Part shown: positions 22,916 through 59,566 of the stretch, piece after piece
Layout of the letters: each line of letters starts with the position of its first letter
Numbering within the stretch: the first letter of the stretch is position 1
Source of the DNA: Actinocatenispora comari
GTDB taxonomy: Bacteria > Actinomycetota > Actinomycetes > Mycobacteriales > Micromonosporaceae
Assembly: GCF_017312725.1 (NCBI RefSeq)
Contig: NZ_BOPO01000151.1
Span: 1-64,000, forward strand
Length of the DNA: 64,000 nucleotides
Direction: 5' to 3'
Translations under genes and position numbers: made by a program
Notes under the pieces: model-generated
Told to the model about the DNA's origin: nothing
Seen by the model: only the letters and a program-made list of their open reading frames with translations
Database searches by the model: none

Positions 22916-23671
22916 TCAGGCGACGCGGATCGTGACCGGATGCTGGCCGAGCCGGAACGCGGCGGCGACCCGTCGCAGTTGCCCGACGTCCGCCCCGCCG
23001 GCCACCTGCAGCGCACCGGACACCGGCGCGGACACCTCCGGCGCGGACAGCACCGCACCGGCCATCACGATCGCCAGCTGCCGCCCGGTGTACCGGCTGG
23101 TCGCGTCGCTGATCGCCTGCTGCCCGGCGGCGCTGAACCGTACCGTCACCGACCAGCCGGCGTCCGAATCGGTACCGGTGTGCACGTCGGTCACCTCGCG
23201 GCCGGACAGCACCGGCGGGCCCAGCCGGTACCGCTGGCCGGACCGGTCGCAGGCGGGCGGGTCGCCGGGGGTGCAGCCGGGCGACGGGCTGGTCACGTCG
23301 AGCACCGGTCGCACCGACAGCTCGGTCCGCACCGGCATCAGCGCCCGCAGCCGGGGCAGCGCCGCGGCCCGCGCCGGCGGTACCGCGACGATGATCCGGT
23401 CACCGTGCACCTCGTACCGGGTGCCGGTACCGGCGAGCAGGGCCAGCAACTTGCCGGCGTCCACCCGGGTCGAGTCGTCGCCGCTGACCGTGAACGCGGC
23501 GGTGTGCCAGCTCGCCGGCCAGGCCCGGTCGTCGTCCCGGGACGCGTGGTAGAGCAGGTAGCCGGACAGCCCGGCCCCGCCCACGACCAGCAACAGGCAC
23601 ACCACCAGCGCCACCACCAGGCCGAGGTGGTGGCGCGGCGGGGCAGGCTCGGTCCAGGGCGGCTCGGTCAC
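22916..23671 (-). CDS. Membrane-anchored SecDF P1-head-like protein
   Basis: A 251-residue protein with one N-terminal TM (LGLVVALVVCLLLVVGGAGLSGYLL, in two overlapping stretches) and an extracytoplasmic part. Residues about 165-235 (GWSVTVRFSAAGQQAI, TGRQLAIVMAGAVLSAPEVS, SGALQVAGG) match the head subdomain of the first periplasmic domain of SecD, which clamps exported proteins. The 12 TM segments of SecDF are absent, so it cannot be a SecD. One Cys pair (CTPGDPPAC). GTG start 1 base after the upstream beta-lactamase-like stop, so the two are coupled. Confidence 0.72.
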   Translation of the reverse strand: MTEPPWTEPAPPRHHLGLVVALVVCLLLVVGGAGLSGYLLYHASRDDDRAWPASWHTAAFTVSGDDSTRVDAGKLLALLAGTGTRYEVHGDRIIVAVPPARAAALPRLRALMPVRTELSVRPVLDVTSPSPGCTPGDPPACDRSGQRYRLGPPVLSGREVTDVHTGTDSDAGWSVTVRFSAAGQQAISDATSRYTGRQLAIVMAGAVLSAPEVSAPVSGALQVAGGADVGQLRRVAAAFRLGQHPVTIRVA

Positions 23672-23672
23672 C

Positions 23673-24683
23673 TCAGCCGTCCGGCTCCGGCACGGTGATC
23701 CTGGCCGGCGCCGGTACGCCGAACAGCAGGCCGACGACGTCGGAGACGGTGTGCGTGCCGTACGCGATGGTCGAGTGCGGCTGCACCTGGAACATGATCG
23801 CGACCGCGTACCGCTCGTCCGGGCCGGCGAAGCCGACTGAGTTGAGCACCCAGTGCTTGCCGTACGAGTCGGTCTCGAACGACCAGCCGTTCTTGTCGCC
23901 CGGCTGCTGGTCGTGGCCGGCGGCCCAGACGCCCCACTGCTGGTTCGACGCCACCCCGCGCATCGCGGACACCAGGTACGCCCGGTCGTCCGGCGCGGTC
24001 TTCGTCAGCACGTAGGTCATCAGGTGCGACAGGTCCTCGGTGGTGCACTTGACGAAGCCCCAGTAGGTGCCGTCGGTGAACCCGGGCACGAAGTGCAGCC
24101 CGGACATGCCGAACACGTCCCGGAAGCGGGCCAGCTGGGCGTCTCCGCCGTACCGTTGCCAGAGCCGGTCCGACGCGTTCTCGTCGGAGAAGTTCAGCAT
24201 GTTCGCCAGGTCGGTACGGTCCGCGTCGCTCAACGTGACCTCGCCGGCCCGCTGCCGCCGCAGGATGTCGGTGGCCATCGCCAGCTTGATCGTCGACGCC
24301 GTCCAGCCCGGATGCGTCACCGGACCGTGCTGCCAGCTCTTGCCGGTCGTGCGGTCGGTGATCTGCACGCTCAGGTACGCGTTCGTCGCCGCGTGCTGGT
24401 CCATGTACTTCCTGGCCGCCGCGTACCGCTGCTGCCGCACGCAGTCCGCGTCGCACTGCTTGCTCGGCTTCGGCGACGGCGACCTGCTGGTACGGCCCGG
24501 GGCCGGGGCGGCGCCGCCGGCGTGACCACCGGCACGCTTCGGCTCGGTACCGCTGCCGTGCCGCCACCAGGCCACCCCGCCACCGGCGGCGAGCAGCACC
24601 AGGACGACCCCGGCGGACGCCAGGACCAGGCGCCGGCGACCCGAGCGCCGGTACCGGTGACTCCCACCTCGCTGCCCACCCAT
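23673..24683 (-). CDS. Class A beta-lactamase-like serine hydrolase
   Basis: A 336-residue secreted or membrane-anchored protein. One N-terminal TM (LVLASAGVVLVLLAAGGGVAW) is followed by a Ser/Pro-rich linker. Active-site motifs are STIK (SxxK), SDEN (near SDN) and KNGWS where KTG is usual, in the right order and roughly the right spacing. Whether it hydrolyses beta-lactams or acts as a peptidase or binding protein is uncertain, since the KTG motif is altered. It stands in a two-gene unit with the SecD-head-like protein, suggesting an exported cell-wall function. Confidence 0.75.
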   Translation of the reverse strand: MGGQRGGSHRYRRSGRRRLVLASAGVVLVLLAAGGGVAWWRHGSGTEPKRAGGHAGGAAPAPGRTSRSPSPKPSKQCDADCVRQQRYAAARKYMDQHAATNAYLSVQITDRTTGKSWQHGPVTHPGWTASTIKLAMATDILRRQRAGEVTLSDADRTDLANMLNFSDENASDRLWQRYGGDAQLARFRDVFGMSGLHFVPGFTDGTYWGFVKCTTEDLSHLMTYVLTKTAPDDRAYLVSAMRGVASNQQWGVWAAGHDQQPGDKNGWSFETDSYGKHWVLNSVGFAGPDERYAVAIMFQVQPHSTIAYGTHTVSDVVGLLFGVPAPARITVPEPDG

Positions 24684-24856: not shown

Positions 24857-27115
24857 GTGAGCGCACCGGCCCCGTACCCGTCTCCGGCGATGCCGCCGGC
24901 CACGAACCCGCCCGTACCGGTGCGACCCACCCGGAGCGGGCCGCCCGGCTGGGTCGGGCTGCTGCTCGCCCTGCCGATGGCGCTCGGCTGGTTGTACTGG
25001 CTGGTCATCCCGACGCTGCAGACGGTGATCCAGGCGTTCACCGGCAAGGCGCCCGGTATCGCCAGCAAGTCGTTCCCCGGCAGCGCCGCCGCGCACGGGG
25101 GCGAGTTCGCCGACCCGCTCGGCACCATCGGGAACACCCTGATCCAGGCGGCACTGCCCACCCTGGTGATGCTGATCGTGGTGCCGCTGCTGTCCTTCGC
25201 CGCCGCCGAGGCGCCGACGGTACTGCGTCGGGTCGTGCGCGCGCTGCTCGCCGTGCTGGCCGCCGGCTTCGCCCCCGCCGTGGTCGTCGTCGCCTGGCGG
25301 CACCTGAGCTACCCGCCGGACGGCTTCGCGCACGGGATGGTGCAGTCGCAGCCGAAGCTGGCCGTCCTGGTCACCCTGGCGACGATCGGCCTGATCGCCG
25401 GGATCGGGGTCAGCGTGCTGCTCGCCGCGCTGCGCCGGCGCGCCACCGACCGGCCCGGCCGTACCCTCGGCGGCGCCGTGGTGACCTGGGCCGTCCTGGT
25501 GCTCGGCACCTTCGCGATCGGGTTGCAGGCGATCAGCTTCACGCTGATGCTCGCGCCCGGGCGCGACACCACCACGCTCGGCACCCGCGCGTTCCAGGAC
25601 GCGTTCATGCTGCTGCGGTTCGGCCAGGCCGCCGCCGACAGCACGATCCTGTTCATCCCGGTCGCGGTGCTCGGCCTGGCCGCCGGGCTGATCGTGATCC
25701 TGGCCCGGCCCCGGCTCGAACTCGACCGGTCCGGCCCGTCCGCCGGCCCGCTGCCCCGGCCCAGCTCGACCCGCGCCGTGGTGCTCGGCGTGCTCGCGCT
25801 CGCCGGCGCCGTCGCGCTGCTCGCGGCCGAGGCGTACCCGCGGCTCGGGCTGCTCACCGAGCAACGCACCGCCCCGGGCCCCGACTCGATCAGCGGCACG
25901 CTCACCGATGCGCTGCTGCCGGCGCTGCTCGCCACGGTCGTCCAACTGCTCCTCGCGTACCCGGCGGGGATCGGGATCGGTGCGTTCCGGCCGCTCGGGC
26001 GGCACAGCCACTGGCTGCTGCTGCCGTTCATGCCCTGGCTGTTCGTCACGGCCACGCCGCTGCTGACCGTGTCGGTGGAGTCGGTGCTGGCGAACGGGCA
26101 CATGAACTCGTTCCTCGGCGCGATCCCGCCGATCCTGGTCAGCGTGCCGGCGCTGCTGGTGTTCACGCTGTTCGGCGCCGGCCACGGGTACCGCTGGCGC
26201 GCCGCCCAGGCTGCCCACCGGCCGGCGGCCTTCCTGCGTACGGTGCTGGTGCCGTCGCTGCCGCTGCTCGGTGTGGTGGCCATGGCCACCTGGCTGTACC
26301 AGGCGCACGACTTCCTCTGGCGCTACTCGGTCGTCAACGACATGAAGCACGCCGCCGCCGACGTGGCGCTGCTGCGGCAGCTGGGCATGTACACCGGCGG
26401 CTGGCCGAGTCCGGGGCTGCTGTTCGCGGCCGCGCCGCTGGCGATCCCGGCGCTGCTGGTGTTCGCCGTCGCCCAGATCTGGTACCTGGACCGGCTCGCG
26501 CTGCGCCTCGGCGATCCGGGCCCGGAGCCGGGCGCCGTCGCCGCGGCCGGCCCGTACGGCGGTCCGGTCGGACCCGCCTTCGGTGGCCCCGGCTTCGACG
26601 GCGCGGACCAGGCCGGTCCACGGCTCGGCGGGCTGCCGCCGGCCGCCTTCCCGCCGGGCGCCGCGCCCGGCACCCCGGGGGCGGGCCCCGGCGTGCCACC
26701 CGGTACGCCGCCCGGGCCGGGGGCGCTGCCGGCCGGGTCGCCGATGCCGCCCTCCGGTCCCGGGCTGCCTCCGGCCGGGTCGCCGATGCCGCCTTCCGGG
26801 CCGGGTACGCCGTCGGGTGGTCCGGGGATGCCGCCGGCCGGGTCGCCGATGCCGCCGGGCGGTCCGGGCGGGCAGCCCGGTGCGGGGACTGTGTTCCCGG
26901 GACAGCCCGGCCCGAGCCTCGGCGGTGCCCCGCCGGTCGGCCCGGCACGTCCCGGCGGCCGCACGGCGCCGGACGGCGCGGCACCGTCCGCCGGCGCCGC
27001 GCCGACCGGTCCGGCCGTACCGCCGGGAACGTCGACGCCCGGCGGTCGCACGGCGCCGGACGGTGCGGCGGGAGTGTCGCCGTGGGAACGGGGAGCGGGC
27101 GACGACATACGGTGA
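24857..27115 (+). CDS. Fused MalF-MalG-like permease with Pro/Gly-rich tail
   Basis: A 752-residue membrane protein. Residues about 30-290 follow the MalF-type ABC sugar-permease plan: N-terminal TM, GTIGNTLIQAALPTLV (compare the NTL motif), FAPAVVVVAW, and the C-terminal LRFGQAAADSTILF segment. Residues about 310-560 repeat the MalG plan: TM, LPALLATVVQLLLAYPAGIGIGA, LLLPFMPWLFVTATPLL, FLGAIPPILVSVPALLVF, TVLVPSLPLLGVVA and DFLWRYSVVND. The EAA loop that contacts the ATPase is not recognisable. Residues about 560-752 form a disordered Pro/Gly tail with AGSPMPPSGPG repeats. GTG start with AGGAGG 9 bases upstream. No ATPase or binding-protein gene is adjacent. Function unknown. Confidence 0.75.
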   Translation: MSAPAPYPSPAMPPATNPPVPVRPTRSGPPGWVGLLLALPMALGWLYWLVIPTLQTVIQAFTGKAPGIASKSFPGSAAAHGGEFADPLGTIGNTLIQAALPTLVMLIVVPLLSFAAAEAPTVLRRVVRALLAVLAAGFAPAVVVVAWRHLSYPPDGFAHGMVQSQPKLAVLVTLATIGLIAGIGVSVLLAALRRRATDRPGRTLGGAVVTWAVLVLGTFAIGLQAISFTLMLAPGRDTTTLGTRAFQDAFMLLRFGQAAADSTILFIPVAVLGLAAGLIVILARPRLELDRSGPSAGPLPRPSSTRAVVLGVLALAGAVALLAAEAYPRLGLLTEQRTAPGPDSISGTLTDALLPALLATVVQLLLAYPAGIGIGAFRPLGRHSHWLLLPFMPWLFVTATPLLTVSVESVLANGHMNSFLGAIPPILVSVPALLVFTLFGAGHGYRWRAAQAAHRPAAFLRTVLVPSLPLLGVVAMATWLYQAHDFLWRYSVVNDMKHAAADVALLRQLGMYTGGWPSPGLLFAAAPLAIPALLVFAVAQIWYLDRLALRLGDPGPEPGAVAAAGPYGGPVGPAFGGPGFDGADQAGPRLGGLPPAAFPPGAAPGTPGAGPGVPPGTPPGPGALPAGSPMPPSGPGLPPAGSPMPPSGPGTPSGGPGMPPAGSPMPPGGPGGQPGAGTVFPGQPGPSLGGAPPVGPARPGGRTAPDGAAPSAGAAPTGPAVPPGTSTPGGRTAPDGAAGVSPWERGAGDDIR
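26720..26880 (+). repeat. Imperfect repeats coding AGSPMPPSGPG in the permease tail
   Basis: Three copies of GGCCGGGTCGCCGATGCCGCC, spaced by 30-60 bases, code for AGSPMPP blocks. They are part of the Pro/Gly-rich cytoplasmic or surface tail and are the likely result of slippage. Confidence 0.7.
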
Positions 27116-27214
27116 GCGACGGGGCGACTTCGGTGCGAAACGTGTGTTTCGGGGCGGCCGTGCTTCCGGTACCGTTTCACCCTCCCCTCGACCGCCGACG
27201 AAGAGTGAGGCGTC

Positions 27215-29524
27215 GTGCCCACGCCCCGTCCTGCCCGAATCCTCGGCGCCATCCTGCTGATCCCCGCGGGCGTCCTGCTCGTCGTCGGGTTGCTGGTGCC
27301 GTTCCTCCGACTGCTCGCCGTTGCGGCGGTCACCACGTCGGCCGCCGGCGACTCCCGGTTCACCGGCTTCGCCGCGTTCCGTGACCTGCCCGGCCGGTAC
27401 TGGCACAGCTACCTCGGCGCGATCGCGCTGATCGGGCTGCCGCTGCTGGTGTGCCTGCTGGTCGCGCCGGCGATGGCGTACGTGCTGCGTCGCGCGGTCA
27501 CCCCGGCCCGGCTCACCGCCCGGACGATCGCCGCGGTCCTGCTGGCCGCCTGCGCGCCGCTGGTGATCACCGTCGGCTGGCCCGGCCTGCGGCACCGGGT
27601 GTTCGCCGGCCCGCCCGCGCTCGACCTGGCCGTACTGGCCGGCACGCTGGTCGCGGTGGCGCTCGGGGTGGCGCTGCTCGCGACGCTCACCGCCGGCACC
27701 GGCCGGTCTCTCGGCGCGGTCGTCGGGGTGCTGGTACTCGGCACCCTCTCGCTCGGCTGGCAGCTGATCACCGTGCCCGGCCAGATCGGCTCGTCGGTCA
27801 CCGGCGGCTCCGGCGGCCTGTGGACCCCGGCGTACGCGGCGCGGTTCGCGCTGGCCGCCGGCGACGAGCAGTACGGGTCCCGTCGCGCCGCGATGGCCGT
27901 CGTACTGCTCGTCGTGGTCGGGGCCTGCGGCCTGGCGGCCTGGCTCGGTGGCCTGCTGCTGCGCCCGCGACTGGTGCTGGCCGCGCGCCGGCCCGAGCCG
28001 CTGCCGGCGCCGTCGCACCGCCGCGACGCGGTGCAACTGGCCGCCGGTGCCGCGCTCGCGGTGCTGGTGGTCGGGGCCCTGGCGGCGGTGCTGATCCCGA
28101 TCCCGTCCGCGGCCGGCCGGCCCGACTCGTTCCTCCCGCTGCTCGGTACCGCGCTGGCCCGGCCGGCGCTCGTCTCGTTGGGCGCCGTCGTGATCGCCGC
28201 CGCGGCTGGGGTCGCGATCGGTGCGCTGCGGCCGGCCGGTCAGCACAGCTGGTGGCTGCTGCTGCCGTTCGCGCCGGGCCTGTTCGTCACCATGGGGCCG
28301 CTGGAGGCGCTGGACCGGCAGTTCGATCCGGTGTCGGCCGGCCTGATCTGCGTACCGGCGGTGTTCGGGTTCGCGCTGCTGTCCGCCGGTCACCGGGACC
28401 GCTGGCTGCGCCGGCGCGAGGAAGGCGACCGGTTCGCCTGGCGGGCCCTGCTCGCCCCCGCCGTGCCGTTCGCGGTACTGGCCTGGCTGGCGGCGCTGCT
28501 GGTCGAGACGGTCGACCCGGCGGGCGCCGGCCCGATGCTGGACCGCCTAGGCGTGGCCAGCTCCACCGCGGTGCTGCTCGCCGCGCCGGTCGCGCTGCTC
28601 GCCGCGGTCCTGCTGATCGTCCTGCAACTCGGCTACCTGGACCGGCTGACGCTGGTCGTGGCGGCCGACGCCACCGACCCGACCGGTACCGCCCCGGACG
28701 TGTCGGCCGCGCTCGCCGGCGCTGGTTCGACCACCGCCCGTCCGATCACCGGTGCAGCGGAGCCCCTTGCGCCGCAAGGAAACGACGGTGACGCTGCGGC
28801 CACCGCGGACGAGCCGGGGCGGCGGCGCGGTGGCCCGCGCCGATCGACGCGCACGGCCGAGCCGACCTCGCGGGGCGCGGACCGCACCGGGAACGGTCGG
28901 AGCGAGACGGGCGCCGCTGAGCCGCCCGCCGCCGACGACCGTGCCGCCGGGTCGTCGGCAGCCGGTCGTGCCGCCGGGCCGGCGACGGCGAGCCGCGCCG
29001 CCGAGTCGGTGGCCGACGACGAGATGAGCGAGTGGATCGGCTCGCTGCGCGGCACGGACGCGAAGCACGCGCAGCCGGCGCCGGCCGCGGCCGACGACGT
29101 ACCGGCGAAGCGCGCCGCGACGCCGCGCCAGCGCCGCACCGCCAAGGCCGCCGGTACCGCCAAGGCCGCCGCGGCAGCGCAGACCGCCGCCGCGAACCCG
29201 CCCGAGACCGGGCATCCTTCCCGGGCTGGGGCACCGTCCGAGGCCGGGGGCCCGACGGGGCAGCCGTCCGGGGACGGGCAGCCGTCCGGGACCGCGGAGA
29301 CGGCTGGTGCCGCGGGGGCGGCGGGCGACGCGGGTACCGGCGCGGTCGAGACGGCCGGCCGGACCGACGCCACGAAGGACGCCGACTCCGAGACCCGGGA
29401 CGGTACGACCGGGCCCGGTCGTACCGCGAAGCGTGCCGGCAAGCGGCGCGCCACGAAGAAGCCGCCGGCACCGCGAGCCGCCGAGAAGTCCGTTGTGGAC
29501 AGTGCGGGCACCGACGACGCCTGA
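27215..29524 (+). CDS. Second fused permease-like membrane protein with disordered tail
   Basis: A 769-residue paralogue of the preceding gene. The first half has an N-terminal TM, RFTGFAAFRDL (the MalF FxG...F segment), and PAYAARFALAAGDEQYGSRRAAMA. The second half has VIAAAAGVAIGALRPAGQHSWWLLLPFAPGLFVTMGPLEAL and VALLAAVLLIVLQLGYLDRLTL, colinear with the first protein. It is more diverged and again has no recognisable EAA loop. The last 220 residues are Ala/Thr/Gly/Lys-rich and disordered, ending in a basic KRRATKKPPAP stretch. GTG start with GTGAGG upstream. 99 bases after the first gene, so co-transcribed. Confidence 0.72.
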   Translation: MPTPRPARILGAILLIPAGVLLVVGLLVPFLRLLAVAAVTTSAAGDSRFTGFAAFRDLPGRYWHSYLGAIALIGLPLLVCLLVAPAMAYVLRRAVTPARLTARTIAAVLLAACAPLVITVGWPGLRHRVFAGPPALDLAVLAGTLVAVALGVALLATLTAGTGRSLGAVVGVLVLGTLSLGWQLITVPGQIGSSVTGGSGGLWTPAYAARFALAAGDEQYGSRRAAMAVVLLVVVGACGLAAWLGGLLLRPRLVLAARRPEPLPAPSHRRDAVQLAAGAALAVLVVGALAAVLIPIPSAAGRPDSFLPLLGTALARPALVSLGAVVIAAAAGVAIGALRPAGQHSWWLLLPFAPGLFVTMGPLEALDRQFDPVSAGLICVPAVFGFALLSAGHRDRWLRRREEGDRFAWRALLAPAVPFAVLAWLAALLVETVDPAGAGPMLDRLGVASSTAVLLAAPVALLAAVLLIVLQLGYLDRLTLVVAADATDPTGTAPDVSAALAGAGSTTARPITGAAEPLAPQGNDGDAAATADEPGRRRGGPRRSTRTAEPTSRGADRTGNGRSETGAAEPPAADDRAAGSSAAGRAAGPATASRAAESVADDEMSEWIGSLRGTDAKHAQPAPAAADDVPAKRAATPRQRRTAKAAGTAKAAAAAQTAAANPPETGHPSRAGAPSEAGGPTGQPSGDGQPSGTAETAGAAGAAGDAGTGAVETAGRTDATKDADSETRDGTTGPGRTAKRAGKRRATKKPPAPRAAEKSVVDSAGTDDA

Positions 29525-29603: not shown

Positions 29604-30446
29604 TCAGGCTCGGGTTTCGGTGCGGGTGGCGGGCCGGTTGCTGCCGGGACGGGCCAGGCTGGTGAGCGCGGCCAGCACCCGGGGCCAGGCCGGCGCGGCG
29701 GGATCGACGACGGTGAAGTGGTCGGCGCCGTCCAGCTCGATCAGCCGCAGCCCGTGCCGGCCGGCGTAGTCGCGGGTCAGCACGATCGGCACCCGGCCGT
29801 CGCTCGGCCCGTGCAGCAGCACCGTCGGTACCTCCGGGGCGGGCAGCGCGGCCGGATCGGCCGCGGCGTACCGGTCCGGATGCTCGCCCGGCCCGCCGCC
29901 CATCAGCGCGCCGGCGGCGCCCAGGTCGAGCCCGCGCCGGTACGTCTCGGCCAGGTCGCAGACCGGCGCCAGCCCGAGCACCCCGCGTACCGGCGGGGCG
30001 GTGTCCCGGCGGCCCGGCGCGCCGGCCGGCAACCGGTGCCGCAGCGCGCCCCACAACGCCAGGTGACCGCCGGCCGAGTGCCCCGCGTACACGGCCGGGC
30101 CCGGCTCGACGCGGCCCGGCGCGGCGGCGTCGAGCAGCGCCGGCGCGGCGTCCAGCGCCGCGGCGACGTCGGTGAACGTGGCCGGCCAGCCGCCGCCGTC
30201 GCCGGTCCGCCGGTACTCCGGGCAGGCCACCGCGTACCCGCGCCCGGCAAGCTCGGCGGCGAGCGACGCCAGGTAGCCGCGGTCCACGTCGTGCCGCCAG
30301 TACCCGCCGTGCAGGACGATCACCAGCTGCCCGGCACCGCGCGCCGGCAGCCAGCCGTCGATCACCTGGTCGGGCAGCTCCCCGTACCGCAGCGTCACGT
30401 CCGGCTGCGGGGCGGGACGTGACAGTATGTCCCGTTGTTCGGCCAT
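29604..30446 (-). CDS. Alpha/beta hydrolase, kynurenine-formamidase-like
   Basis: A 280-residue cytoplasmic hydrolase. It has the oxyanion-hole motif HGGYW (residues about 46-50), the nucleophile elbow GHSAGGH, and a C-terminal Asp (SDGRVP) and His (GADHFTV) completing the triad. The HGGxW oxyanion hole followed by GHSAGGH is typical of arylformamidases and hormone-sensitive-lipase relatives. No tryptophan-pathway gene is adjacent, so the substrate is open. ATG at 30446. Confidence 0.85.
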   Translation of the reverse strand: MAEQRDILSRPAPQPDVTLRYGELPDQVIDGWLPARGAGQLVIVLHGGYWRHDVDRGYLASLAAELAGRGYAVACPEYRRTGDGGGWPATFTDVAAALDAAPALLDAAAPGRVEPGPAVYAGHSAGGHLALWGALRHRLPAGAPGRRDTAPPVRGVLGLAPVCDLAETYRRGLDLGAAGALMGGGPGEHPDRYAAADPAALPAPEVPTVLLHGPSDGRVPIVLTRDYAGRHGLRLIELDGADHFTVVDPAAPAWPRVLAALTSLARPGSNRPATRTETRA

Positions 30447-30546: not shown

Positions 30547-31137
30547 ATGACCGAGACACCGCGCGAGCAGCAGCAGCCCGACGAGCCGGAGTCCCGCACC
30601 GTGCTGGTGGTGGGTCCGGACGGTCGGCCGGTCGGCGCCGTCGACGTCGACCCGGCCGAGGCGGACGCGGCGAAGGACCCGGCCAGCCAGATCGAGCAGC
30701 CGGCCAAGGTGATGCGGATCGGCAGCATGATCAAGCAGCTGCTGGAGGAGGTCCGGGCCGCGCCGCTGGACGAGGCCGGCCGGCAGCGGCTCAAGGAGAT
30801 CCACGCCCGCTCGATCGTCGAGCTGGAGGAGGGGCTGGCGCCCGAGCTGCGGGAGGAGCTCGACCGGCTGTCGCTGCCGTTCAACGACGACGCGACGCCG
30901 ACCGAGCCGGAGCTGCGGATCGCGCAGGCACAGCTGGTGGGCTGGTTGGAGGGGCTGTTCCACGGCATCCAGGCGGCGCTGATGGCGCAGCAGATGGCGG
31001 CCAGGATGCAGCTCGACCAGATCCGCGGTGGCCAGCGGCCGGCGCTGCCCGCCGGCCAGGCCGGCATGATGATGCCCGGCGTCCCCGGTGGCGGCGATCA
31101 CCCCGAGCCGCCGAACCGTACCGGCCAGTACCTCTGA
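30547..31137 (+). CDS. bpa: Bacterial proteasome activator
   Basis: A 196-residue homologue of mycobacterial Bpa/PafE, an ATP-independent ring that opens the 20S proteasome gate for unfolded proteins. Diagnostic are the helical core (MRIGSMIKQLLEEVRAAPLDEAGRQRL, ELEEGLAPELREELDRLSLPF, ELRIAQAQLVGWLEGLFHGIQA), the MAQQMAARMQLDQ helix and the C-terminal GQYL that docks into the proteasome alpha-ring pockets. It implies that this organism has a proteasome, encoded outside the window. Methionine- and proline-rich linker before the tail. ATG start. Confidence 0.93.
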   Translation: MTETPREQQQPDEPESRTVLVVGPDGRPVGAVDVDPAEADAAKDPASQIEQPAKVMRIGSMIKQLLEEVRAAPLDEAGRQRLKEIHARSIVELEEGLAPELREELDRLSLPFNDDATPTEPELRIAQAQLVGWLEGLFHGIQAALMAQQMAARMQLDQIRGGQRPALPAGQAGMMMPGVPGGGDHPEPPNRTGQYL

Positions 31138-32086: not shown

Positions 32087-33778
32087 TCAGTTGTAGTACT
32101 GGGGGTCACAGCCGACCGACTTCATCACCTTGTCCGGCACCTGCTGGCCGTTCGTCCAGTCCGGCTGCCCGCCACCCGGCCCGGGCTCGCAGATGCTGGT
32201 ACCGAGCACGAGCTGGATCCACTTGCCGTTCTTGTACTGGAGCACCGCCACCGCCGGATCGAGCGCCTGACCGCCGCTCTGCCCGAACAGGTGCACGCCG
32301 GCGAACCCGCCGGCGCAGACGATGTCACCGTGCACCGCGAAGCTCGATCCGTCTGTCGTGCCGCCCCCGCCGTTGGTGTCCGGCGACACCGACTTCTGCA
32401 CCTGCTCGTTGCTCGGGCACGGATCCGACGGGTTGGGGCTCGGCGTCGGGCTGGGCGTGGTCGCGCCGCCGGCGGCCCGGTTGGGGTCGGCGCTGGGGCT
32501 GTGGCTCGGGTCGGCGCCGGCGCCGAACTTCTCCCACGGCTGCAGGATCACCGCCGTCGCCGCGGCGGCGAGCAGGAACGCCCCGGCGGCCACCAACGGC
32601 AGCCAGCGTCGCCGCCGCTCCGGTACCGGTGGCGCCGGTTCCGGTTGCGGCACCGTGATGCCCGGGTCGAGGCGGTCCATCGCCCGGGCGACCCGCGGCG
32701 ACAGTGCCGGTGCCGCCGGGGAGTGCAGCGCGCCCTCGGCGACCGCCGTCTCCGGCTGCTCCAGTACGGTCGGGGCCACGCTCAGCGCGCGGTGCAGCGC
32801 CTGCCCGACGAGCGGGATCCGGCTGGAGCCGCCGACCAGGAACACCCCGGCGAGCTCGCCCGCCGGCGTACCGGAGCGGCCGATCGTCGCGGCGGTCTCG
32901 GCGACCGCGGCCTGCACCAGCGGCGCCGCCAGCGCCTCGAACTCGGCCCGGGTCAGGTGCGTCGCCGTGGGCAGCCCGGGTACGTGCACCCCGGCCTGGC
33001 TGGCCCGGGACAGGATCTCCTTCGCGGCCCGGACGTCCTGCCAGATCAGCGCCCGGTCGCGCAGGTCGGTGGGGGAGCGCGGGGTGGACAGCCGGGCCCA
33101 CAGCTCGGGTGCCTGCCGCTGGATCGGCCCGGCCAGCTGCCCGATGATCGCCGCGTCGATGTCGATCCCGCCGACCGTGTCCAGCCCGCCGGTGGCGGCG
33201 ACGACCAGCTGCCCGCCGGCCCGCCGGACCACCGCGACGTCCAGCGTGCCGCCGCCGAAGTCGAACACCGCGAGCCCCTGCCCGGCGGGCAGCCGGCTGC
33301 CGAGCACGGTGGTGAAGTAGCACGCGGCCGCGATCGGCTCGGCGACCAGCCCGGACACCGTCAGGCCGGCGCGCCGGGCCGCCTCGGCGAGCACGCCCCG
33401 GCGCGCCGGGCCCCACGCCACCGGATGCGTCAGTACGGCCGGGGGCAGCGCACCGGCGACCCGCCGCGCCTCGTCCGCCACCCGCCGCAGTACCGCAGCG
33501 ACCAGGTCGACCACCGCCACCGTGCGGTCGCCGAGCAGTACCGTGCCGTCGTCGATCCGCCGCTTCGGGTACGGCTCGAACCGGGCCGGGTCGTCCCGAG
33601 ACAGGTGCGCGGCGTCCCGGCCGACGAGCAGGGTGCCGTCGGCCGCCGCGAACACCGCCGACGGCAGCAGCGGCGAGCCGTCGAACAGCAGGGTCCTGGC
33701 CTGTCCCTTCGCGTCCCGCAGCAGCGCCACCGTGTTGGAACTGCCGAAGTCGACGGACAGCGCGAGCGGCTCGGGCAC
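32087..33778 (-). CDS. Hsp70-family protein with TM anchor and ectodomain
   Basis: A 563-residue protein. Residues 1 to about 365 are an actin-fold Hsp70 nucleotide-binding domain: phosphate-1 loop VDFGSSNTVALL, phosphate-2 VFDFGGGTLDVAVV, adenosine motif FLVGGSSRIPLVG. The substrate-binding domain of DnaK is replaced by a TM (WLPLVAAGAFLLAAAATAVIL, residues about 395-415) and an extracytoplasmic Cys-containing domain (CPSNEQ, VCAGGF, SICEPG, GCDPQYYN). The type-I topology with cytosolic ATPase suggests signalling or envelope assembly, not folding. GTG start with GGAGG 9 bases upstream; the gene is 19 bases after the FAH-family gene. Confidence 0.88.
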   Translation of the reverse strand: MPEPLALSVDFGSSNTVALLRDAKGQARTLLFDGSPLLPSAVFAAADGTLLVGRDAAHLSRDDPARFEPYPKRRIDDGTVLLGDRTVAVVDLVAAVLRRVADEARRVAGALPPAVLTHPVAWGPARRGVLAEAARRAGLTVSGLVAEPIAAACYFTTVLGSRLPAGQGLAVFDFGGGTLDVAVVRRAGGQLVVAATGGLDTVGGIDIDAAIIGQLAGPIQRQAPELWARLSTPRSPTDLRDRALIWQDVRAAKEILSRASQAGVHVPGLPTATHLTRAEFEALAAPLVQAAVAETAATIGRSGTPAGELAGVFLVGGSSRIPLVGQALHRALSVAPTVLEQPETAVAEGALHSPAAPALSPRVARAMDRLDPGITVPQPEPAPPVPERRRRWLPLVAAGAFLLAAAATAVILQPWEKFGAGADPSHSPSADPNRAAGGATTPSPTPSPNPSDPCPSNEQVQKSVSPDTNGGGGTTDGSSFAVHGDIVCAGGFAGVHLFGQSGGQALDPAVAVLQYKNGKWIQLVLGTSICEPGPGGGQPDWTNGQQVPDKVMKSVGCDPQYYN

Positions 33779-56183: not shown

Positions 56184-57526
56184 TCGGCTGGCTGGACTGC
56201 GCCAACGGCGCCAGCGGCGACATGTTCCTCGGTACCCTCGTCGACGCCGGCGTGCCGCTGGAGCACCTGCAGGCGATGGTGTCCGCGCTGCCGGTCGAGC
56301 CGATCCGGCTGACCGCCGAGTCGACCAGCCGGCACGCGATCGCCGCGACGAAGGTGCACGTCGAGGCGCCGGAGAGCCATCACCACCGGCACTGGTCGGA
56401 CGTCCGGGAGATCGTCACCGGCGCGGCGCTGCCGGCGGCGGTCCGCGACACCGCGCTGGACGCGTTCGGCCGGCTCGCCGCCGCCGAGGCCGAGGTGCAC
56501 GGCACCTCGCCCGAGGAGGTGCACTTCCACGAGGTCGGCGCGCTGGACGCGATCGCCGACATCGTCGGTACCTGCGCCGGCATCGCCTGGCTGCGCGAGC
56601 ATCGCGGCCTGACCGACCTGTCCGCCGGGCCGCTCGCGCTCGGCTCCGGTCGGGCCCGCGGCGCGCACGGCGCGATCCCGATCCCCGGCCCGGCGGTACT
56701 CGGCATCGTGGCCGCCGCGTCGATCCCGGTCACCGGCGGCGACCTGCCGTACGAGGCGTGCACCCCGACCGGGGCCGCGCTGCTCGCCACGCACGTCGCA
56801 CGGTGGCGGTCGATGCCGCCGCTGCGGGTCACCGGTACCGGCGTCGGTGCCGGCGGCCGGGACCCGGCCGAGACCGCGAACGTGCTGCGCCTGGTTCTCG
56901 GCGAGCCGGCCGACCTGCGCCCGGCCGGCCGCCCCGAGGCCGGCCCCGGGACGGACCGTGCCGGCACGGCCGCCGGGGCAGCCGGGCCCGACGCCGCCGA
57001 CCGGCCGCACGCCGCCGCCGCCGAGGGGCTGGCCGCCGCGGACCAGCCGCGCGCCGCCGCGCCCGACGAGGCGGAGGCGCTGGTACTGGAGTGCAACGTC
57101 GACGACCTGGATCCGCGGCTGTGGCCGGCGGTACTGGCGAGGCTGCTCGCGGCCGGCGCCGCGGACGCCTGGCTGACCCCGATCCTGATGAAGAAGGGCC
57201 GTCCGGCGCACACCCTGTCGGTGCTGTGCCGCGCCGAGCACGCCGCCGCGGTGCGCGGCATCGTGTTCGCCGAGACCAGTTCGATCGGGCTGCGCGCGCA
57301 CCCGGTACGGAAGTTCCCGCTGGACCGGGCCGAGCGCGCGGTGACCGTGGGCGGCCGGTCGATCCGGGTCAAGGTGGCCAGCGACGACGGCAGCGTCGTC
57401 AACGTCTCGGTCGAGTACGCCGACGTCGCCGCCGCGGCAGCCGCCCTGTCGCTGCCGGCCAAGCAGGTCCTCGCCCGGGCCACCGCCGCCGCGGCCGAGC
57501 TGTACCCGGCCGGTGCGGCTCAGTAG
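56180..57526 (+). CDS. larC: Nickel insertion protein LarC
   Basis: A 448-residue LarC, the CTP-dependent nickel insertase of the pincer cofactor pathway. The N-terminal MIGWLDCANGASGDMFLGTLVDAGVP and the His-rich ESHHHRHW are family features, as are EEVHFHEVGALDAIADIVG and CTPTGAALL. The C-terminal part (LVLECNVDDLDPRLW, TPILMKKGRPAHTLSVLC, SSIGLRAHPVRKF) is fused in one reading frame, whereas in Lactobacillus it is joined by a programmed frameshift. An Ala-rich linker of about 45 residues (about 250-295) is inserted between the halves. Convergent with a spermidine-synthase-like gene with 7 bases overlap. Confidence 0.93.
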   Translation: MIGWLDCANGASGDMFLGTLVDAGVPLEHLQAMVSALPVEPIRLTAESTSRHAIAATKVHVEAPESHHHRHWSDVREIVTGAALPAAVRDTALDAFGRLAAAEAEVHGTSPEEVHFHEVGALDAIADIVGTCAGIAWLREHRGLTDLSAGPLALGSGRARGAHGAIPIPGPAVLGIVAAASIPVTGGDLPYEACTPTGAALLATHVARWRSMPPLRVTGTGVGAGGRDPAETANVLRLVLGEPADLRPAGRPEAGPGTDRAGTAAGAAGPDAADRPHAAAAEGLAAADQPRAAAPDEAEALVLECNVDDLDPRLWPAVLARLLAAGAADAWLTPILMKKGRPAHTLSVLCRAEHAAAVRGIVFAETSSIGLRAHPVRKFPLDRAERAVTVGGRSIRVKVASDDGSVVNVSVEYADVAAAAAALSLPAKQVLARATAAAAELYPAGAAQ

Positions 57527-59142
57527 TTCTTCCACTCCTCGCGTTCGAGGTCGATGATCCGCGGGTGGGTCAGCGTGGACGGCTCCTCGCGCCGGCGGGC
57601 CCGGTCGGCCGGGAACACGGTGGACGCGCGCAGCACCCCCGGGGTGAGGAACCTGGTCTTCGGGGCGTCCGGCGCGAGCGTCGGGGTCGGCGCCGTGCGC
57701 GCGCCGGCGAGCACGAACCCCCAGTCGCCGAACGACGGCACGTCCACGTGGTACGGCGTGGGGTGCCAGCCCGCCGCGCGCACCCCGGCCTCGATGCACC
57801 AGTACGACCGGGGTGCGAAGTACGGTGAGCCGGCCTGCACGACCAGCCGCCCGCCTGGCCCCAGCACCCGGTGCAGCAGCGTGTAGAACTCGGTCGAGTA
57901 GAGCTTGGCGGTGGCGGTCGAGTCCGGGTCGGGCATGTCCACGACGACCGCGTCGTACCGGTCGCGCTGCGACTTCAGCCAGGTCATCGCGTCCTGGTTG
58001 ACGACCCGGACCCGCGGATCGTCGAACGAGTGCCGGTTCAGCCGGCTCAGCCGCGGATCGTGCCGGGCCAGCCGGATCATGTCCGGATCCAGCTCCACCA
58101 GCGTCGCCTGCCGCACGTCGGGGTAGCGCAGCACCTCGCGCAGCGCCAGCCCGTCCCCGCCGCCGAGGACGAGCACCCGGTCGTGCCGCCCGGACAGCGC
58201 CGGATGCACCAGCGCCTCGTGGTAGCGGTACTCGTCGACCGAGCTGAACTGCAGGTCGCCGTCCAGGTAGAGGCGGACGTCCGGCTGCGACACCGACAAC
58301 GACTGGGTGAGCACGATCTCCTGGTAGTGGGAGCGCTCGGCGACCACGATCGGGTCGTCGTACAGCGCCTGCCGGGCGCTCACCTCGAACCGCCCGGCCA
58401 GCCCGTACGTGGTGGCGAGCAGCACCGCGACGAGCGCGGCGAGCACCGCCAGTACGGCCCGGGAGCGGCGCGGCAGGCTGCGCCGGAACACCCCGAGGAC
58501 CAGCCCCAGGCCGGCCACCGCGTTCACCGCGCCGACCAGCAACGCGCCCTGGACCAGCCCGAACACCGGCAGCAGCAGGAACGGGAAGGCCAACCCGCCG
58601 AGCAGCCCGCCCACGTAGTCGACGGCGAACAGGTCGGAGACCGCCGAGCCGACCTCCTGCCGGCGGATCCGCTGCAGCAGCACCATCAGCAGCGGGATCT
58701 CCGCGCCGATCAGGCAACCGACGGCGAACGCGATCGCCACCATCGCCGGCACGTACAGGTCGAGCCAGGCGTACGCGGCGTACAGCCCGAGCACCGACAG
58801 CCCGCCGAGCAGCGCCAACGCCACCTCGACGCCGGCGAACGCGGCCGCGGCCCGGCGCTGCAGCGGCTTCGCCGCGAACGCGCCGACCCCCATCGCGAAC
58901 ACCATCACCGCGAGCACGATCGACGCCTGGCCGACCGCGTCCCCGATCAGGTAGCTGCCGAGCGCGACCAGCGCCAGCTCGTACACCAGGCCGCAGGCCG
59001 CGCACAGGAACACCGCGAGCAGCACCGCGAACCGGGCCAGCCGCCGGTGCCGCGGCCAACCCGTCCCGGCGCTCTCGCCGTCCCCGGCGTCCTCGGAGGC
59101 CGGGTCGGGCCGGGCGGTGGTGAGCTCGTCGGGTACCGCCAT
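57520..59142 (-). CDS. Membrane-embedded spermidine-synthase-like protein
   Basis: A 540-residue protein. Residues about 35-260 contain seven to eight TM segments (LARFAVLLAVFLCAACGLVYE through AVLAVLAALVAVLLATTYG); residues about 275-500 form a spermidine-synthase-like Rossmann domain (FSSVDEYRYHEALVHPAL, VLVLGGGDGLALREVL, VELDPDMI, DAVVVDMPDPDS). The aminopropyltransferase fold and GGGDG pocket are kept, so a polyamine or decarboxylated SAM substrate is possible; activity is unproven. ATG 1 base after the DUF350 stop. Last gene of the operon. Confidence 0.88.
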   Translation of the reverse strand: MAVPDELTTARPDPASEDAGDGESAGTGWPRHRRLARFAVLLAVFLCAACGLVYELALVALGSYLIGDAVGQASIVLAVMVFAMGVGAFAAKPLQRRAAAAFAGVEVALALLGGLSVLGLYAAYAWLDLYVPAMVAIAFAVGCLIGAEIPLLMVLLQRIRRQEVGSAVSDLFAVDYVGGLLGGLAFPFLLLPVFGLVQGALLVGAVNAVAGLGLVLGVFRRSLPRRSRAVLAVLAALVAVLLATTYGLAGRFEVSARQALYDDPIVVAERSHYQEIVLTQSLSVSQPDVRLYLDGDLQFSSVDEYRYHEALVHPALSGRHDRVLVLGGGDGLALREVLRYPDVRQATLVELDPDMIRLARHDPRLSRLNRHSFDDPRVRVVNQDAMTWLKSQRDRYDAVVVDMPDPDSTATAKLYSTEFYTLLHRVLGPGGRLVVQAGSPYFAPRSYWCIEAGVRAAGWHPTPYHVDVPSFGDWGFVLAGARTAPTPTLAPDAPKTRFLTPGVLRASTVFPADRARRREEPSTLTHPRIIDLEREEWKNY

Positions 59143-59143
59143 G

Positions 59144-59566
59144 TCAGGAGATCGCCGCGGCGGTGATCGCGCCGACCGCCAGGTTGACCGCGGCGGTGAC
59201 CCAGACCGCCGGGTGCGGTGCCTCGTCGACCAGCAGCGCGCCGAGCCGCCCCGGCGTCGCCAGGTCGAGCAGGACGAACGCCACCGCCATCACCAGGATG
59301 CCGAGCACCCCGTACAGCGCGGTGGACAGCAGTCCGAGCAGCAGGCCGTCCTCGCTGGTCAGGATCGCCGTGGTGACGATGATCGCGACGGCGGCGAGGC
59401 CGGAGACGAGCACCAGGGCGGCGTTGCGGTTGCGCTGCTCCCAGATCTGCCGGCGCAGGTTGCCGGGCGTGACCAGATCGACGAGCAGGTACCCGAGGGC
59501 GAGCAGCGCGATGCCGACACCGCCGTAGGCGAGGGCCGACAACAGGCCGCTGAGCATCTCTCTCAC
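59144..59566 (-). CDS. DUF350 membrane protein
   Basis: A 140-residue protein with four TM segments in a two-fold repeat (SALAYGGVGIALLALGYLLVDLVTPG and STALYGVLGILVMAVAFVLLDLATPG), the internal duplication typical of DUF350. Function unknown. GTG at 59566 with AAGGA 8 bases upstream; an ATG at 59557 is also possible. 12 bases downstream of the preceding gene. Confidence 0.9.
   Translation of the reverse strand: MREMLSGLLSALAYGGVGIALLALGYLLVDLVTPGNLRRQIWEQRNRNAALVLVSGLAAVAIIVTTAILTSEDGLLLGLLSTALYGVLGILVMAVAFVLLDLATPGRLGALLVDEAPHPAVWVTAAVNLAVGAITAAAIS

Follow-up and report, generated by a model that had tools for sequence, protein, structure and literature searches.

A putative family of single-chain MalF-MalG-like membrane proteins without EAA coupling loops in Actinocatenispora comari and related bacteria

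In the analysed stretch of the Actinocatenispora comari genome (contig NZ_BOPO01000151.1, 64,000 nucleotides; hereafter the window), two tandem genes, A and B, encode membrane proteins of one family, which by profile methods is homologous to the permeases of type I ABC importers. A and B very probably descend from a MalF plus MalG permease pair and carry its fold, and normal coupling to an ATPase has probably been lost in both. Each chain would unite the full set of transmembrane subunits of a type I ABC importer, a MalF-like half followed by a MalG-like half, and both EAA coupling loops on the cytoplasmic side appear to be lost. Owing to the loss of both loops, no ABC ATPase could dock in the known way; A and B may act in the membrane independently of ATP. 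Passage of a small solute along the old translocation path, by a facilitator, a channel or an ion-coupled carrier, would be the most likely role, and sensing of a substrate as a receptor a less likely one. Homology, the order of the halves, the predicted fold, the loss of the loops and the conservation of the family without adjacent partner genes come directly from the computations. Taken as a whole, a fused pair without EAA docks that works without ATP is our best explanation, held with moderate confidence; the carrier or channel function is a tentative prediction.

Both open reading frames lie where the first-pass annotation had placed them, and the peptides quoted there were found in the sequences of A and B. 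The two frames are on the plus strand, separated by 99 bases (Table 1). The G+C contents at the three codon positions are 0.76/0.61/0.93 for A (measured from 24803) and 0.79/0.63/0.92 for B, a gene-like bias in each case, and both look like real genes. Searched singly against Pfam (E up to 10), A and B matched no family; in the single-sequence Pfam and NCBIfam scans neither gave a useful match, and the MamL match of A (E 0.51) was judged to be noise.

Table 1. Features of genes A and B and their nearest neighbours in the window
Feature	Position	Strand	Basis
Beta-lactamase-fold protein, left of A	23673-24683	-	Pfam
Protein A: membrane protein of 752 aa (GTG start 24857), MalF- and MalG-like halves fused, C-terminal tail of low complexity	24857..27115	+	Sequence, codon-position G+C, family search, hhalign, model
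A, MalF-like half (about residues 31-290)	24947..25726	+	hhalign of family N-half to MalF; model helices
A, predicted short turn at site of MalF EAA coupling loop (residues 193-199)	25433..25453	+	Alignment, model
A, MalG-like half (about residues 305-552)	25769..26512	+	hhalign, conservation, model
A, predicted short turn at site of MalG EAA coupling loop (residues 453-457)	26213..26227	+	Alignment, model
A, Pro/Gly-rich tail, poorly conserved even among congeners	26516..27112	+	Sequence, dN/dS comparison
Protein B: diverged family member, same build as A, 769 aa	27215..29524	+	GTG start 27215, stop at 29524; codon-position G+C, profile search, model
B, predicted turn replacing MalF-type coupling loop (residues 160-162)	27692..27700	+	Model
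B, predicted short charged helix (394-402) and coil replacing MalG-type coupling loop, without EAA motif (residues 393-409)	28391..28441	+	Sequence, model
B, Ala/Thr/Arg-rich tail, fast-changing	28673..29521	+	Sequence, dN/dS comparison
Alpha/beta hydrolase, right of B	29604-30446	-	Pfam

A search with the core of A matched 51 of 121 sampled genomes of the window's own family (E <= 0.001). Relatives were counted in 48 of the 121, three genomes with only weak matches to the MalG half (G011, G046, G063) being excluded. From 40 fetched loci, an iterated profile search collected 45 family proteins, 47 together with A and B; B was reached at E 5.5e-103. A pattern-based scan of named genomes gave at least 80 loci, among them loci in Micromonospora, Plantactinospora, Dactylosporangium, Catellatospora, Hamadaea, Actinoplanes, Virgisporangium and Phytohabitans, and also in Glycomyces, Nonomuraea, Actinomadura, Actinoallomurus and two Anaerolineae MAGs. 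By the labels of the tree, the family is conserved across Micromonosporaceae, Streptosporangiaceae, Thermomonosporaceae and Glycomycetaceae. The members on contigs of the two Anaerolineae (Chloroflexota) MAGs are at L102:4715-6436 and L158:909-2855; the family may reach beyond Actinomycetota, or these bins may be mixed.

In 100 genomes taken from the family to which G619 belongs (judged Nonomuraea-like from its 77% match in G826), a search with a Nonomuraea member gave 13 matching genomes at 1e-10; six scored above 190 bits, and seven, with 43-51 bits over the MalF half, look like ordinary permeases. A class-wide search with a single protein matched 25 of 296 genomes at 1e-5, with clear members in G000 and G619; the matches in the other 23 genomes, of at most 41 bits and covering parts of the MalF half, were taken as ordinary permeases and set aside. 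In a phylum-wide profile search, which scored three candidates per genome and gives no evidence of absence, the window's genome was the only one returned among 396.

As to homology, the two halves of the family were compared by hhalign with 14 MalF-type and 17 MalG-type proteins from the window's own genome, the E-values being those of a one-profile comparison. The family alignment has 123 rows including duplicates (96 and 90 rows were kept; members from named genomes with a matched span of at most 480 residues were left out). The N-half matched MalF with 99.6% probability over 256 columns; the match of the C-half to MalG is weaker, with 97.0% over 204 columns. When E. coli MalF and MalG were placed first, the values were 99.6% and 96.8%. 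In the crossed comparisons, the C-half gave 0.6% against MalF and the N-half gave 93.8% against MalG, over 107 columns; the two family halves gave 11.7% against each other, and reference MalF gave 99.8% against reference MalG. Searched against PDB sequences, the family profile found SugA (7cad_A, 3.4e-12; 8ja7_A, 3.2e-10), SugB (1e-7), PotB (1e-4) and MalF (8e-4), almost wholly in the MalF half; the second half is assigned as MalG-like on the basis of hhalign and the predicted models. The NCBIfam model of the UgpA permease matched 14 of 47 members weakly at E <= 1 (best 4.4e-8).

The profile-profile comparison was one check proposed in the first-pass annotation, which had described two permease-like halves in MalF-then-MalG order; this order is borne out by the family profiles and by Foldseek, not by single-sequence Pfam. 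None of the 47 family proteins matched BPD_transp_1 (PF00528) at E <= 1, the outcome that the annotation had named as speaking against its reading. However, single-sequence Pfam is too weak to decide the matter, and this null result is overridden by the profile-profile and structure comparisons.

AlphaFold2 models were built with family alignments of 78 rows for A and 45 rows for B. The model of A has a pLDDT of 87.6 and a pTM of 0.90, that of B a pLDDT of 85.5 and a pTM of 0.88. For both, the top PDB match of Foldseek over the full length is the fused permease FbpB (9j4r_A), with TM 0.60/0.66 and E 3.6e-4 for A, and TM 0.57/0.57 and E 7.2e-4 for B; it is also the sole match below E 0.001 for either protein. 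SugA, SugB, MalG and an alginate importer likewise reached a probability of 1.00 with A, and the list of B also holds SugA and the MalFGK2 chain 9bcr_H. The models predict the type I importer permease fold for A and B, and no unrelated fold, the other outcome that the annotation had named as speaking against its reading.

That A and B are unrelated polytopic membrane proteins, for example of the MFS type, with a chance likeness to MalFG, is hardly credible. The lack of a permease match in single-sequence Pfam would fit such a reading, as would the MFS and other carriers in the Foldseek lists, whose E-values are similar to that of SugA. But these carriers have probabilities of at most 0.54 and TM of at most 0.22, against 0.99-1.00 and 0.43-0.66 for the ABC permeases (TM by target length), and the profile, hhalign, Foldseek and UgpA results all argue against it. 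We judged the unrelated fold to be refuted already and read the carrier matches as noise.

The MalF-like half of A contains long helices at residues 31-62, 87-118, 121-136, 165-192, 200-223 and 255-283 in the model. Within the MalG-like half lies the most conserved stretch of the family, with the consensus GIGxLRPLGRxSEWLLLPF. Ten residues, P52, Q224, G273, R378, P379, G381, S384, L388, F391 and L395, are invariant in the 78 alignment rows. In the hhalign alignment the invariant Q224 pairs with N439 of E. coli MalF, a position which we take to be close to the maltose-binding residues. Judged from the alignment, the membrane core is what the family retains. The family is built with two permease halves on one chain. 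At two loci (L115:5836-7583, L182:594-2268), the MalF-like and MalG-like halves are in two overlapping frames instead of one, either as natural split genes or by sequencing frameshifts.

The long tails pointed out in the first pass are of low complexity, past about residue 553 in A and 486 in B, and evolve faster than the cores. Compared to G050, dN/dS is 0.33 for the core and 0.39 for the tail of A, and 0.23 and 0.76 for those of B; compared to G070, the values are 0.35 and 0.47 for A, and 0.28 and 0.67 for B. For fifteen neighbour genes dN/dS is 0.07-0.35, and the core of A is at the upper end of this range. The cores of A and B are under purifying selection, and the tails, most of all that of B, are less constrained.

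Decay, in which A and B would be remnants of permeases without function, is very improbable, given the open frames and the selection on the cores. The motif loss, the lack of adjacent partner genes and the high dN/dS of A relative to its neighbours would agree with it; however, relatives occur in several families, nearly all with the same loss and with the same core residues kept.

The EAA motif in MalFGK2, as described in PMC3150292, consists of two short cytoplasmic helices in direct contact with MalK. The first-pass annotation could not recognise this loop in A and B, and the family alignment and both models agree with it. Among the 123 alignment rows, duplicates included, the motif is present in one N-loop and in no C-loop. 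The corresponding counts in the references (14/14 MalF, 17/17 MalG) were rejected as a control, being circular: the references had been chosen by an EAA-like motif. The median length is 29 residues (21-73) for the N-loop stretch between the conserved R193 and Q224, and 21 residues (8-29) for the C-loop stretch between G442 and P469; among the rows listed, two of Catellatospora have the value of 8. Aligned to E. coli MalF, the EAA region is covered by one 15-residue gap in one mode of hhalign, and in the other mode by two gaps of 9 and 8 residues that flank a few residues. Aligned to E. coli MalG, A has only a 3-residue gap; its C-half loop has mostly kept the length and lost the motif, and in many other members this loop is shorter. 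In the model of B a short helix remains at one of the two loop sites, which counts against the main reading. That the proteins are ATPase-less is deduced from the missing dock.

The first-pass annotation had also reported no partner genes beside A and B, and this holds: the nearest genes are those of the beta-lactamase-fold protein and the alpha/beta hydrolase, and among the BPD_transp_1 matches listed for the genome (125 in total at E <= 0.001) none is on the contig of the window. Adjoining the beta-lactamase-fold gene, window 22916-23671 encodes a small protein that carries a SecDF P1-head domain and, N-terminally, a hydrophobic stretch. Farther away are an HSP70-like protein of only 563 aa (32087-33778), in which the Pfam match is confined to residues 86-350, and a DUF350 protein beside a protein of 540 residues whose C-terminal part holds a spermine/spermidine synthase domain (57520-59566). 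The small protein at 30549-31137 has no Pfam match at 0.001; by eye we take it to resemble the bacterial proteasome activator Bpa. A link of A and B with this gene was rejected, as other genes make up the most frequent neighbour clusters outside this genus.

As to conservation of the neighbourhood, another check named at the outset, family genes lie beside unrelated housekeeping genes, and these neighbours differ by clade. They are YebC, a GNAT protein and RuvC in Nonomuraea, adenylosuccinate lyase and thiolase in Dactylosporangium and its kin, and enoyl reductase and ferrochelatase in Hamadaea. The 40 commonest neighbour clusters include no family that is shared between clades, and no binding protein was seen among the recurring neighbours. 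Of ten neighbour representatives searched against Pfam, nine are enzymes, YebC, PdxT-like or RuvC, and one has no match. By strict motif searches within up to 6 kb, several loci ending at contig ends, no ORF with a strict EAA motif was found at the 80 listed loci, and an ABC-ATPase-like ORF was found at six (L093, L098, L137, L141, L148, L156).

Only at L137, in Virgisporangium, is the ATPase gene directly adjacent to the family gene. There, in Virgisporangium aurantiacum (L137:7657-8934, the same gene as L050:7634-8911), the gene of an ABC ATPase (PF00005) follows downstream in the same orientation after 93 bases; it may be there as a remnant, as a new partner or by chance. The family protein of this locus is also without EAA. 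A quick tree places L137 next to six Dactylosporangium rows, as their sister within a starred eight-member clade, on a long branch with a support of 87; because L137 is nested inside the family tree, its adjacent ATPase was rejected as the ancestral state.

A and B might still be ATP-driven importers, with a binding protein and a shared, multitask ATPase encoded elsewhere, the latter docking by a different surface. Shared ATPases that serve several sugar importers exist, according to PMC7658222, the number of BPD_transp_1 matches points to many importers in the genome, and one of the 80 listed loci has the adjacent ATPase gene. Nevertheless, nearly all members have lost EAA at the two loop sites, loops as short as 8 residues occur in the Catellatospora rows, and no strict-EAA ORF lies at any listed locus; we consider such an importer improbable.

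Somewhat unlikely, too, is a receptor, sensor or regulator, in which the pair would bind a ligand and signal or anchor partners through the cytoplasmic face or the tails, without transport. In each half, the short loop that joins helix 2 to helix 3 bears conserved Arg residues (R124 and R128; R378-P379-G381-S384), on the cytoplasmic side if the topology is that of MalF and MalG, and the core was kept while the energy coupling was lost, both of which would suit a receptor. Against it stand the poor conservation of the tails, the lack of a neighbour family recurring across clades among the 40 commonest clusters, and the lack of any signalling domain in Pfam and NCBIfam. In our ranking, a carrier or channel comes first, a receptor second and an importer with a remote ATPase third; the remainder falls to decay or to something unforeseen.

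Pairing of two such proteins, which the first-pass annotation had taken as a design, was not supported: 78 of the 80 listed loci have one copy. Two copies are found in L081 (the same locus as L043), and in L116 the gene finder called none. Neighbouring copies occur in the window and at five of the 40 fetched loci, namely L039 and L040 of congeners, L043, L052 and L058; in L052 a gene of adenylosuccinate lyase sits between the two copies. A second copy at another place in the genome is also present in G047 and in G098. In the congener locus L041, A is present without B, and B is on a long branch in the family tree. Pairing recurs but is not general.

Among known systems, the single-chain type I permease FbpB of Thermus thermophilus (9j4r_A, 490 residues) is matched in structure by A and B over the whole length with a probability of 1.00. 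We take the 9j4r structure of FbpBC to include the ATPase FbpC. By its PDB title, FbpB was solved as part of the ferric importer FbpBC. The sequence identity to A and B is 16-17%; different from FbpB, the family is without coupling loops, with an adjacent ATPase gene at 1/80 listed loci. The best sequence-profile relatives are the CUT1 sugar importers, SugA/SugB of LpqY-SugABC and MalF/MalG of MalFGK2, with which the family shares the MalF-then-MalG order and the GxxNY and GGP..T regions. In these importers the two permeases are separate subunits that have EAA loops and come with an ATPase and a binding protein, whereas the family has one chain and no EAA; the large insert of E. coli MalF is not present in the family either.

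In the prevailing view, a type I ABC importer permease moves only when an ATPase docks to it. The solitary BioY, an S-component of ECF transporters, was reported to work without the ATPase module; although its fold differs from that of type I importer permeases, it may serve by analogy as a precedent for a part of an ABC-type transporter that works without its ATPase. Single-chain permeases (FbpB) and ATPases that serve several importers (PMC7658222) are already known. Our literature search, conducted mostly outside subscription journals, turned up no description of a family of permeases whose EAA loops were lost.

It is possible, and we put it forward tentatively, that a whole family of importer transmembrane pairs shed the ATPase and became a putative stand-alone, ATP-independent transporter or channel. 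If true, this would reverse the usual view of type I importer permeases as only half a machine. A family with the translocation core but without both docking loops would be a natural test of what the transmembrane pair can do by itself, and would let one study the routes by which primary pumps could become carriers, channels or receptors. It would also accommodate proteins to which Pfam and NCBIfam, in the searches made here, assign no name.
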